Positions 4,002 through 44,231 of a DNA stretch of 64,000 nucleotides are shown one piece after another. The translations under genes were made by a program, and so were the position numbers. The notes beneath the pieces are model-generated. The model ran no database searches, was not told where the DNA came from, and saw nothing but the letters and a program-made list of their open reading frames with translations. Each line of letters begins with the position of its first letter. Positions within the stretch are counted from its first letter, which is position 1. Location: positions 186,001 through 250,000 of the forward strand of contig CATLFB010000003.1 of the NCBI GenBank assembly GCA_949927415.1. The letters are read 5' to 3'. Source of the stretch: an uncultured Candidatus Melainabacteria bacterium. Its GTDB lineage: Bacteria > Cyanobacteriota > Vampirovibrionia > Gastranaerophilales > Gastranaerophilaceae.

Positions 4002-4556
4002 ATGGCTGTTGTAATCAATTATGAACTCAAGAAATTTATAAAAAGGCTTTTGGATTTCTATCCACCTGACATTAATGCGAAATTAGAAATTGATAATTTT
4101 GCGCAAGAGTACTACAACACTATTCAAAACGCAATAGAAAAAAGTCGTCAAGAGTACGACTATGATGCACTGATGGAGTTGGTAAAAAGAAAATACACAT
4201 ACAAGACAACACCTACTATTCCTGTGATCCTTGACCTGTTACCCAAAGCTGAAAAACGAAAAAATATGCCAAGAAGTAATGATGAAGGAAAAACTTTTGT
4301 CCTTATCCTTTCAAAAATAGACAAAGAAACCGGCGAAATAAAACGACGATACGAAAATTATACAATTTATAATAGTGGGAATATTCCATATAATTCAAGC
4401 CAAAAAGTTAAAGAATACCGGGAACGTTTTGATGATGTCAAAGTTAGAATGTTTCCTGTCGGAACAGTTATAAACGGTCGGGAAGGCAAAGTTATACGGC
4501 CCGATAAAGATGAGATAGAGATTTTAATACCCGAACTTTTAGAGGAGAAAATATGA
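4002..4556 (+). CDS. Replication-associated protein, possible helicase loader
   Basis: 184 residues. The N-terminal half (LLDFYPPDINAKLEIDNFAQ, then DYDALMELVKRKYTYKTTPTIPVILDLLP) has the helical layout and the final PTI-DLLP signature of small phage helicase-loader domains such as SPP1 G39P. The C-terminal half (ETGEIKRRYENYTIYNSG) is a separate beta-rich part without a match. It directly follows the replisome organizer and overlaps the next start (ATGA), so a replication role is likely; the loader assignment is tentative. Confidence 0.55.
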   Translation: MAVVINYELKKFIKRLLDFYPPDINAKLEIDNFAQEYYNTIQNAIEKSRQEYDYDALMELVKRKYTYKTTPTIPVILDLLPKAEKRKNMPRSNDEGKTFVLILSKIDKETGEIKRRYENYTIYNSGNIPYNSSQKVKEYRERFDDVKVRMFPVGTVINGREGKVIRPDKDEIEILIPELLEEKI

Positions 4557-5132: not shown

Positions 5133-5609
5133 ATGGTTGTAACAGTAGATTTGATAGGAAAAGAGAGACTTAAAAAACAAAAATACAGATTAAGGACTAT
5201 TCTGCAATTACAAAACAGAATAGACCAAATTGATACTGAATTATCAGGTCCCGGAGGTCTTAAATATTCGGATATGCCAAGAAGTCAAGGAACATTCGAT
5301 AAGGTTGGAACTTTAATTTCTGAAAAAATGTCAAAAGAAAAAGAATTGAATAAGATTCTTCCGAAATTTGAAACTGAAGGTAAACTCATAAATGAAGCAT
5401 TGGTAAAAATGGGTGAACTACCTCAACCAAACAGAGGCCCTTTAATATCACAATACTGTGATTTATTACGGTACTACTACTTGGAAGATAAACCTTGGGA
5501 AGAAATACTTGAATCATTTTCTTTTGAAAAAGATGATGATTCAAAACTCCGACTAGTACATAAGTGGCATGGAAAAGCGTTAACTTTGCTTAAAGAAAGT
5601 CAAATATAG
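5133..5609 (+). CDS. Phage late transcription regulator-like (DUF1492/ArpU type)
   Basis: 158 residues. Coiled-coil N-terminus (RLRTILQLQNRIDQIDTEL), then YCDLLRYYYLEDKPWEEILE followed by a short helix pair (LRLVHKWHGKALTLLKE). This sigma-region-4-like C-terminus with the -YL-DKPWEEI- box is characteristic of DUF1492/ArpU/RinA-type phage regulators that switch on late genes. It may be the activator that acts on the repeat array at 19861, but there is no direct evidence. Confidence 0.65.
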   Translation: MVVTVDLIGKERLKKQKYRLRTILQLQNRIDQIDTELSGPGGLKYSDMPRSQGTFDKVGTLISEKMSKEKELNKILPKFETEGKLINEALVKMGELPQPNRGPLISQYCDLLRYYYLEDKPWEEILESFSFEKDDDSKLRLVHKWHGKALTLLKESQI

Positions 5610-19247: not shown

Positions 19248-19275
19248 TTGACAAATAATCAAAAGGTGTTATAAT
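19248..19275 (+). promoter_or_regulatory. Consensus sigma-70 type promoter
   Basis: TTGACA (19248-19253), 16-base spacer, TATAAT (19270-19275). Both boxes match the consensus exactly, the best promoter seen in the window. Predicted start near 19282. Confidence 0.88.
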
Positions 19276-19398
19276 ATAAATATACAGAACTTTGAAAATT
19301 TAATCACAGGGTAAAAGATACTCTTTCTAAAGGAAACCTTCCTACAACATTATAGATAGACTTTTCGGGTTGGTTCCCGGACTAGAAAGGTGGTCGGT

Positions 19399-19488
19399 AT
19401 GAGTGATTTCAATTTGACCTTATTTTTGATCGTATTGATTTTGAACATATTAAAAGCGGTTCTCATTCATATGAATAAGAACCGCTAG
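19399..19488 (+). CDS. Hydrophobic peptide, candidate type I toxin (29 aa)
   Basis: ATG 5 bases after AAAGGTGG. Polar start (MSDFN), one membrane helix (LTLFLIVLILNILKAVLI) and a short basic tail (HMNKNR). Size and layout match membrane-acting type I toxins and the small 'holin-like toxin' peptides, but the sequence is not one I recognise. Its 3' half lies under the antisense RNA. Confidence 0.68.
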   Translation: MSDFNLTLFLIVLILNILKAVLIHMNKNR

Positions 19489-19534
19489 ACTTTCCTACAG
19501 AGTATCCGGCTAGCTTGGCGAGCTGCCACCCTGT
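19448..19534 (-). ncRNA. Antisense RNA, candidate antitoxin
   Basis: Predicted from the minus-strand promoter at 19541-19569; about 85-90 bases. It ends with AGCGGTTCT-ATTCAT / ATGAAT-AGAACCGCT (19455-19486) and a short U-tract. The one odd pair in this hairpin is U-G in the antisense RNA but C-A (unpaired) in the mRNA, so the hairpin is shaped for the minus transcript. It covers the toxin 3' coding part and the 3' strands of the long-range mRNA helices. Confidence 0.65.
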
Positions 19535-19540
19535 GATTTT

Positions 19541-19569
19541 ATTATAAACTATATTTTACAAAATTTCAA
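19541..19569 (-). promoter_or_regulatory. Antisense promoter
   Basis: On the minus strand TTGAAA (19569-19564), 17-base spacer, TATAAT (19546-19541). Points into the toxin gene; start near 19534. Confidence 0.7.
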
Positions 19570-19589: not shown

Positions 19590-19754
19590 ATGGAAAACTC
19601 GCATAATAAAAAAGGCGGAGCCAGAGTTGGCGCAGGTCGTCCGGTCGGAACAATTAAAGAAAATACAAAGAAGATGTGCTCCTTTAGGCTTTCTACAGAA
19701 GAAGAAAAAGCTGTTCGTGATTTGTTAAAGAAAATGAGAGAAAATAAATATTAA
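19590..19754 (+). CDS. Small basic phage protein (GGARxGAGRP type, 54 aa)
   Basis: ATG after AAAAGGATATAAAA. NKKGGARVGAGRPVGTIKEN then FRLSTEEEKAVRDLLKKMRE. This Gly/Arg opening followed by an 'FRL-EEE-AVR-LL' helix pair is common in small phage proteins and resembles a ribbon-helix-helix DNA binder. It lies just before the repeat array at 19861 and is a possible binder of it. Confidence 0.65.
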   Translation: MENSHNKKGGARVGAGRPVGTIKENTKKMCSFRLSTEEEKAVRDLLKKMRENKY

Positions 19755-19860: not shown

Positions 19861-19930
19861 ACTAAAATTCACCAAAATTCATGAAAATTCACTAAAGTTC
19901 ATGAAAGTTCACCAAAGTTCATTGAAATTC
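19861..19930 (+). repeat. Seven tandem 10-bp repeats
   Basis: Seven back-to-back units with consensus A-Y-N-R-A-A-R-T-T-C and an exact 10-base period, for example ACTAAAATTC, ATGAAAGTTC, ACCAAAGTTC, ATTGAAATTC. One repeat per helical turn puts all sites on one DNA face, as for a cooperatively bound activator, repressor or partition protein. Confidence 0.9.
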
Positions 19931-19957
19931 ATATAGTTTTGAGTTTATAGTTATAAT
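19931..19957 (+). promoter_or_regulatory. Candidate late promoter lacking a -35 box
   Basis: TATAAT at 19952-19957. The expected -35 position holds TCATAT and touches the end of the repeat array, typical of an activator-dependent promoter. Transcript would begin near 19964. Confidence 0.5.
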
Positions 19958-20007
19958 GTCATATTTAATTCGATTGAAAACCATTTATGGTAAATGTGTA
20001 TGTATAA

Positions 20008-20038
20008 ACAGAAGAGCATTGCTCTTCTGTTTTATTTT
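20008..20038 (+). terminator. Leader terminator before late genes
   Basis: ACAGAAGAGC / GCTCTTCTGT, loop ATT, then TTTATTTT. It ends 10 bases before the first late start codon, so late transcripts would need antitermination or start behind it. Confidence 0.9.
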
Positions 20039-20047
20039 GGAGGGTAT

Positions 20048-20677
20048 ATGCCAAGTCTTAAATTTGTAGATTGTTCTGATACATTCCAAAAACTTACAAA
20101 ACTCGGTAATGCTTTTAATAAGATGGACACCGTATTTGAACGGACCTTGAAAGACATGGTTTCTAGAGCACCAGGTAAAATTGCAAGTGCGGTAACTTGG
20201 ATGTATGGCATTAAAAAGTCGGAAGTTTCGTATAAAAAGAGTTTTTATAAAGGTAAAAAAAGCGTCGGTTATATAACAGCTCATGGTGCAAAATTGACAA
20301 CTTTAGAGTTTCGCTATGCCGGCAGACTCTTAACGCCTTTGCATTTTGGTATGACACCAAAATCACGACCGGACGGAAAAAAGAAATATAAAATCAAGGC
20401 AAAAATAAAAAAACAAATAAAAGCCTTGCCGTCACGACCTGAAAAAGCTGTTGACGGTGCAATATTTCTTGCACCTGCTGCAAAAAGTTCTGGTACGGAA
20501 TTAGCTTGGTTCAGATATTCAAAAGATCCATTGGATATCAAACCGGTTAAAACTCTATCACTTCCGCAAATGGTTGATAACAAAATGGTCCGTAAAAAAA
20601 TAAGAAGCGACATTGATGAATTATATCATACGCGATTTGATAACCACATTAAACAGTTTGTAAAAGGAAATATTTAA
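20048..20677 (+). CDS. Minor tail protein Z-like (gpZ family)
   Basis: ATG 20048 after TTGGAGGGTAT; 209 residues. The C-terminal part KPVKTLSLPQMVDNKMVRKK and DELYHTRFDNHIKQFVKGN is the signature end of lambda-type gpZ proteins; KAVDGAIFLAPAAKSSGT fits the preceding beta region. gpZ completes the head-proximal end of the tail. Placement before the terminase, far from the tail genes, is unusual. Confidence 0.65.
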   Translation: MPSLKFVDCSDTFQKLTKLGNAFNKMDTVFERTLKDMVSRAPGKIASAVTWMYGIKKSEVSYKKSFYKGKKSVGYITAHGAKLTTLEFRYAGRLLTPLHFGMTPKSRPDGKKKYKIKAKIKKQIKALPSRPEKAVDGAIFLAPAAKSSGTELAWFRYSKDPLDIKPVKTLSLPQMVDNKMVRKKIRSDIDELYHTRFDNHIKQFVKGNI

Positions 20678-32780: not shown

Positions 32781-32803
32781 GATTTTCATATTAATCCTTT
32801 CTT

Positions 32804-32837
32804 AAATACCCGTTTTAATGGCGGGTATTTATTTTTA
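32804..32837 (+). terminator. Hairpin after the tube gene
   Basis: AAATACCCG / CGGGTATTT, followed by ATTTTT. Probably lets sheath and tube be made in excess over the downstream tail genes. Confidence 0.85.
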
Positions 32838-44199: not shown

Positions 44200-44231
44200 C
44201 GGGGACTGAATAAAATCAGTCCCCGTTTTTT
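44200..44231 (+). terminator. Late operon terminator
   Basis: CGGGGACTGA / TCAGTCCCCG, 10 bp perfect, loop ATAAAA, then six T. Probable right end of phage transcription. Confidence 0.95.

Follow-up and report, generated by a model that had tools for sequence, protein, structure and literature searches.

The sequence analysed here, referred to as the window, is a stretch of 64,000 nucleotides representing a prophage in the genome of a Candidatus Gastranaerophilales bacterium, a gut member of the Melainabacteria that belongs to the same family as a second genome used for comparison, G254. The late genes of the prophage begin with neck1 at 20048 and continue through terminase, portal, capsid and tail sheath genes to a terminator at 44200. 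The features on which the analysis turns are the following.

5133 to 5609, plus strand: ltr, a probable late transcription regulator of 158 aa and putative binder of the array (phrog_36, transcriptional regulator, E 6.8e-7).
19861 to 19930, plus strand: array of seven 10-bp direct repeats, NNNANNAAAN units in the register of the -35, predicted to be activator-binding sites.
19922 to 19927, plus strand: -35 hexamer TTGAAA, inside repeat 7, in a position that matches the relatives.
19928 to 19931, plus strand: partial eighth unit TTCA, extending into the spacer between -35 and -10, where relatives likewise have the 5' half of their unit.
19946 to 19951, plus strand: -10 hexamer TATAGT, separated from TTGAAA by an 18-nt spacer.
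19952 to 19957, plus strand: second -10-like hexamer TATAAT, a putative alternative -10 or sigma-dependent pause element.
19958 to 20047, plus strand: putative late leader, from a predicted start, with a more stable fold than its shuffles (z -3.2).
20006 to 20032, plus strand: predicted intrinsic terminator of the leader, with a 12-bp perfect stem and a T tract to 20038 (d-score +17).
20048 to 20677, plus strand: first late gene, neck1/tail-completion protein (phrog_27, E 4.7e-9).
44200 to 44225, plus strand: strong terminator, the likely end of the late operon.

Within the tail operon, a further terminator-like hairpin stands between late genes at 32803-32831, and it may tune transcription or require read-through.

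The first-pass annotation had described seven exact AYNRAARTTC repeats ahead of the late genes, a promoter without a -35, and a perfect terminator before the first late gene. The repeats were borne out, since 19861-19930 is filled by seven exact head-to-tail units of 10 bp that all match this consensus, which reads TTCAYNAAAR in the register of the -35. The self-match of the array at a lag of 10 is 46 of 60, compared with a window mean of 16.6 (sd 3.8) and 33 at the runner-up place, and it is the strongest signal of this kind within the window. A search of the 2.18-Mb host genome for a pattern made of two units gave five occurrences, all of them within the array, and none for a control pattern. 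The phased A-tracts of the array also predict DNA curvature, which may contribute even without a protein. The -35, by contrast, is not missing. The promoter scan places TTGAAA at 19922, an 18-nt spacer and TATAGT at 19946 (10 of 12 matches), with TATAAT at 19952 directly downstream of this -10, and the form TTGAA-N18-TANNNT recurs in relatives. These have TTGAA(A/C/T) or GTGAAA, 18 nt, and then mostly TANNNT (TATAAG in one), and their -35 hexamer sits in the last unit of the array. Given that TTGAAA falls in repeat 7 and that the relatives are arranged in the same manner, the array runs into the -35, with half a unit entering the spacer. Judged from the relatives, TTGAAA-18-TATAGT is the likely promoter; TATAAT at 19952 could serve as the main -10 with TTCATA as its -35, but the relatives favor the former arrangement.

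The claim of a perfect terminator also stood, as the hairpin combines a 12-bp stem with a T tract and ends 15 nt before the ATG at 20048. These 15 nt are too few to hold another promoter, so that late transcription would have to read through the hairpin; read-through is obligatory if such hairpins work as terminators.

To place the window among related phages, we compared 25 late promoters obtained from terminase relatives in viral contigs and genomes, from neck1 relatives in the host family, and from one ltr-based locus. The relatives in viral contigs came from the terminase scan; scans of these contigs with the neck1 or ltr protein of the window found nothing, and a nucleotide search of phage records with the window gave terminase and methylase matches only. 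No Rfam family was found in the window or its relatives. Across the 25 promoters, which share a terminase module, are not independent and had their -10 hexamers assigned by eye, the DNA upstream has a lag-10 self-match with a z of 12.8; removing the window and the five loci selected for periodicity lowers the z to 9.0, a value reached in 0 of 1000 shuffles. In the 11 promoters of the TTGAA type, the units keep one 10-bp register with the -35, the A and AAA columns being conserved and the remainder different. Across the phages compared the unit varies, being TTCAYNAAAR in the window, GAGAGTAAAT in locus L017, GGCAGTAAAG in L015 and of a CTTAC type in L064. The layout is kept in Bacillota phages and in two other Gastranaerophilales genomes (G254 and G293), in the order 10-bp repeats in -35 register with a core of A-N-N-A-A-A, -10, often a second -10-like hexamer, leader terminator and first late gene. 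The neck1 homologues of G254 and G293 are 43-44% identical and stand behind like promoters. Regarding the conservation of the repeats in related phages, the architecture is kept but the letters of the unit differ; as array and leader terminator both recur, the comparison supports the view of a switch for late genes in which activator sites line one DNA face and a leader terminator follows.

An intrinsic terminator between the -10 and the first gene is present in 23 of the 25 leaders, compared with 2.6 when leaders are shuffled and 4.65 when random real windows are taken; in G293, the 24th leader, the hairpin is shorter and comes with a T tract. Most promoters of the TTGAA type have a leader terminator that ends 15-32 nt 5' of the start codon, a gap too small for a further promoter, and several leader terminators are weak by d-score. 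In the window itself, the seven repeats and the terminator are both far beyond chance. A leader terminator is also found in phi11 (RinA), phi13 (Ltr) and TP901-1 (Alt). In Lactococcus phages with Alt, the hairpin AGGTTGTCCANTGGGCAGCCT followed by TTTATTG recurs with nearly invariant sequence in 29 of 40 non-redundant leaders, at a distance of 20-37 nt ahead of the gene (counts read from a listing, with gene starts called automatically); the leaders themselves vary, extend over hundreds of bases and may carry tRNA genes, and the position of the hairpin is kept. In the literature searched, which did not extend to the original descriptions of Alt, RinA and the Ltr superfamily, we found no account of a leader terminator in phages of the RinA/Alt/Ltr type. 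Two further features of these leaders were noticed. tRNA genes lie between the late promoter and the first late gene at 5333-5419 of a gut viral contig (L018) and at 4135-4376 of TP901-1 (L088), and a AAAATTCTA-type sequence just past the late start region is common to the leaders of L064, L322, L325, L333, L040 and L054.

A second hexamer of the form TANNNT begins 6-8 nt past the start of the -10 in 18 of the 25 late promoters (shuffle mean 1.3), and one is also present in phi11 and TP901-1. In six loci a -10-like hexamer is found at an offset of 13-14, which would place it at about +1 to +7. By analogy with known late switches, the second hexamer may pause the polymerase so that an antiterminator can load, or it may be a mere spare -10.

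The best candidate for the protein that binds the array is the product of ltr at 5133-5609, one of the candidates named in the first-pass annotation. Its match to phrog_36 is modest and spans residues 10-154, and the protein itself matched no Pfam or NCBIfam model. All 16 aligned relatives match phrog_36 and some also match DUF1492, DUF722, RinA, Alt-like or sigma70-ECF models, the sigma-70 model being matched by 5 of the 16. The phrog_36 profile also matches 12 of 14 control genomes and all genomes scanned, which makes it unusable for locating ltr in genomes; such broad matching is consistent with a sigma region-4-like domain. The AlphaFold model (pLDDT 81) predicts two long helices and a C-terminal helix-turn-helix (HTH). 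A structure search with this model gave helical-bundle matches below a useful level, with Q21 and other regulators absent among the matches listed, and PDB chain sequences gave no match of the protein to Q21, lambda Q or AlpA; in comparison with Q and AlpA there is no sequence match and no fold match among those listed. In an iterated profile search, homologues of ltr were found directly upstream of the corresponding arrays in many Bacillota phages. The distance between ltr and the array is 14 kb in the window and about 12-13 kb in G254 and G293, whereas the two are adjacent in the Bacillota relatives. Within the host family (288 genomes), a clear ltr homologue was found together with a close homologue of neck1 only in G254 and G293, apart from the window's own genome, and the best ltr homologues are also theirs. 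Because its homologues adjoin the Bacillota arrays, and because the best ltr and neck1 homologues occur in the same two genomes, the 5133 protein is taken as the likely binder of the array; it is likely a distant member of the RinA/Alt/Ltr group of late regulators with a sigma region-4-like HTH. The other binders proposed earlier fared less well. Relatives have RelE-like pairs at the matching place, and it is their antitoxin that the small protein at 19590 resembles; nothing ties either the LuxR-type or the ParB-like proteins to the arrays.

Some neighboring elements are recorded here in their own right. A 90-aa protein encoded at 7457-7729 matches phrog_2044, labelled 'RNA polymerase beta subunit' (E 5.9e-11); it is too short for this label, which is doubtful, and it is possibly a polymerase-binding factor. 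A candidate type I toxin-antitoxin with the layout of Fst/par lies at 19248-19569. It has a consensus promoter TTGACA-16-TATAAT (19248-19275), a 29-aa hydrophobic peptide MSDFNLTLFLIVLILNILKAVLIHMNKNR (19399-19488), a convergent minus-strand promoter (19569-19541) whose antisense RNA would extend as far as about 19455 and folds very stably (z -6.2), and a shared hairpin, with short direct repeats close to either 5' end. The protein at 19590-19754 looks like an orphan antitoxin, and at its place, upstream of the late promoter, G293 and G254 have a RelE-like toxin and a GG.R.GAGR-type antitoxin (L079, L080). Toxin modules seem to collect immediately upstream of the late promoter.

It seems quite probable that this region controls the late operon of a Gastranaerophilales prophage, with the array and its regulator activating a weak promoter and the leader then being read through. 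The array, its register with the -35, the order of promoter, terminator and gene, and their recurrence are read directly from the sequences compared. The 10-bp units are probably sites for a phage activator protein. From these elements we infer that the RinA/Alt/Ltr-type regulator encoded at 5133-5609 binds neighboring units along a single DNA face, that it activates initiation, and that the hairpin acts as a terminator. Firstly, as the last unit holds the -35, the array would deliver the bound regulator to RNA polymerase at the weak promoter (TTGAAA, 18-nt spacer, TATAGT), where it would activate initiation. Secondly, the polymerase would reach the leader terminator ahead of the first gene, so that late expression would need read-through, either by leakage at high flux or by active antitermination. 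Of the two steps, activation from a phased array has good support and is of a kind already known; antitermination as a second lock is plausible.

Two readings of this second step have to be weighed; both concern that step only and are compatible with the main explanation, so that our confidences in them need not sum to one. The first, to which we give an even chance, holds that the leader terminator is only an insulator, which ends early and read-through transcripts and past which strong firing of the promoter leaks with no antitermination. Since ltr often closes the early genes and its end overlaps the array, a terminator fits only downstream of the promoter, and the weakness of several leader terminators agrees with leakage. 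However, G293 and G254 have a terminator upstream of the array and still keep the one in the leader, and the hairpin of the Lactococcus Alt phages stays close to the gene even in long leaders with tRNA genes. The second reading, a tentative one with rather less than an even chance, is active antitermination of the Q or AlpA kind, in which the regulator or a partner loads at the promoter, aided by the second -10-like hexamer. With Q and AlpA, the antiterminator can load because the polymerase pauses at a -10-like sequence close to the start (PMC6606751, PMC9371919). The parts found here are those of a lambdoid late switch, namely an upstream regulator gene (in relatives), sites that run into the spacer between -35 and -10, the second hexamer of most promoters and the leader terminator. 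Moreover, 21Q binds direct repeats through a sigma region 4-like HTH (PMC6606751), AlpA requires a -10-like sequence at -1 to +5 (PMC9371919), and GafYZ joins activation with antitermination (PMC11150451). The phi13 P23 reporter extended 50 bp beyond the start site (PMC13123087), which by our count covers the hairpin and four T, so that it did not separate the two steps. Against antitermination, the position of most arrays, upstream of the -35, is that of initiation activators, the usual offset of the second hexamer (6-8) is nearer than in lambda or AlpA, and no homologue of Q, AlpA or GafZ was recognised among the early genes scanned. A wider proposal, which we regard as unlikely, is that the RinA/Alt/Ltr group, textbook phages included, are dual factors that would activate initiation from helically phased sites and then make the polymerase resist the leader terminator, and would play the part of Q in phages of Gram-positive bacteria and of Melainabacteria.

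The array itself could be thought to act through DNA shape, its phased A-tracts bending the DNA or binding the C-terminal domain of the polymerase alpha subunit in the manner of an extended UP element, without an activator of its own. The predicted bend is indeed in the top 0.1-2.5% of local sequence in the window and most TTGAA-type relatives. However, other 10-bp arrays at a like place have no A-tracts and little bend (percentile 0.40 in L064 and 0.84 in L328), and the flanking bases of the unit are phage-specific and repeated within each array, as expected for a protein that reads sequence, making this reading very unlikely. That the repeats are an origin, partition or packaging site rather than a transcriptional one, as nearby terminase and ParB-like genes might suggest, is highly improbable, because the repeats of different phages keep their register with the -35 and the array stops at the promoter.

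Returning to the control element, the array appears to be a further case of a known kind of activation, and the leader terminator the part for which we found no description. Such a layout would be the master switch for the virus-building genes of a gut prophage, and it recurs in distant phages, textbook ones included. It suggests a rule in which -35-like sites (A-N-N-A-A-A) spaced by 10 bp, read by a sigma region-4-like protein, end in the real -35. Published reporter data may conflate two steps if RinA/Alt/Ltr late leaders generally carry a terminator that has to be read through.

Several known systems resemble this one in part. PhoB, a response regulator with a winged helix, acts at pho boxes, which are 11-bp tandem direct repeats of few units with the last copy overlapping the -35. 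The window shares with them the tandem direct-repeat sites and the last copy over the -35, and differs in its repeat length, its number of units and the type of regulator. GafYZ of the Caulobacter gene transfer agent is a precedent for a late switch in two steps, activation and antitermination (PMC11150451), although it uses two proteins plus IHF, its terminator comes after the first gene, and GafY binds far upstream. The lambdoid pR'-tR' region with Q, and PalpB with AlpA, have in common with the window a promoter, a -10-like sequence near the start, a leader terminator and an HTH regulator. However, Q and AlpA bind between -35 and -10, whereas the sites of the window are mostly upstream of or over the -35, with a partial unit alone in the spacer, and TATAAT directly follows the -10, the conserved offset of 6-8 being closer than in known Q promoters.

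The closest likeness is to RinA, Alt and Ltr, which are seen as activators of initiation. TP901-1 (Alt), phi13 (Ltr) and phi11 (RinA) have a regulator of the same broad family, repeats upstream of the late promoter and a leader terminator, and Alt-phage units such as CACGAAATT resemble the CACCAAAATT of the window. Alt binds direct repeats immediately upstream of the late promoter of TP901-1, and Ltr requires such repeats at the same place in phi13 (PMC13123087). By our own reading, the repeats are 18 bp in phi13 and about 11 bp in TP901-1 and phi11, in contrast to the seven units of exactly 10 bp in -35 register found here, where the regulator is 14 kb away and the host is not one of the Bacillota. 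The window has the regulator family and the direct repeats upstream of the late -10 by which such a system is recognised; the adjacent regulator gene, usual but not defining, is absent from it. The window would thus extend the RinA/Alt/Ltr-type system to a prophage of uncultured gut Melainabacteria.
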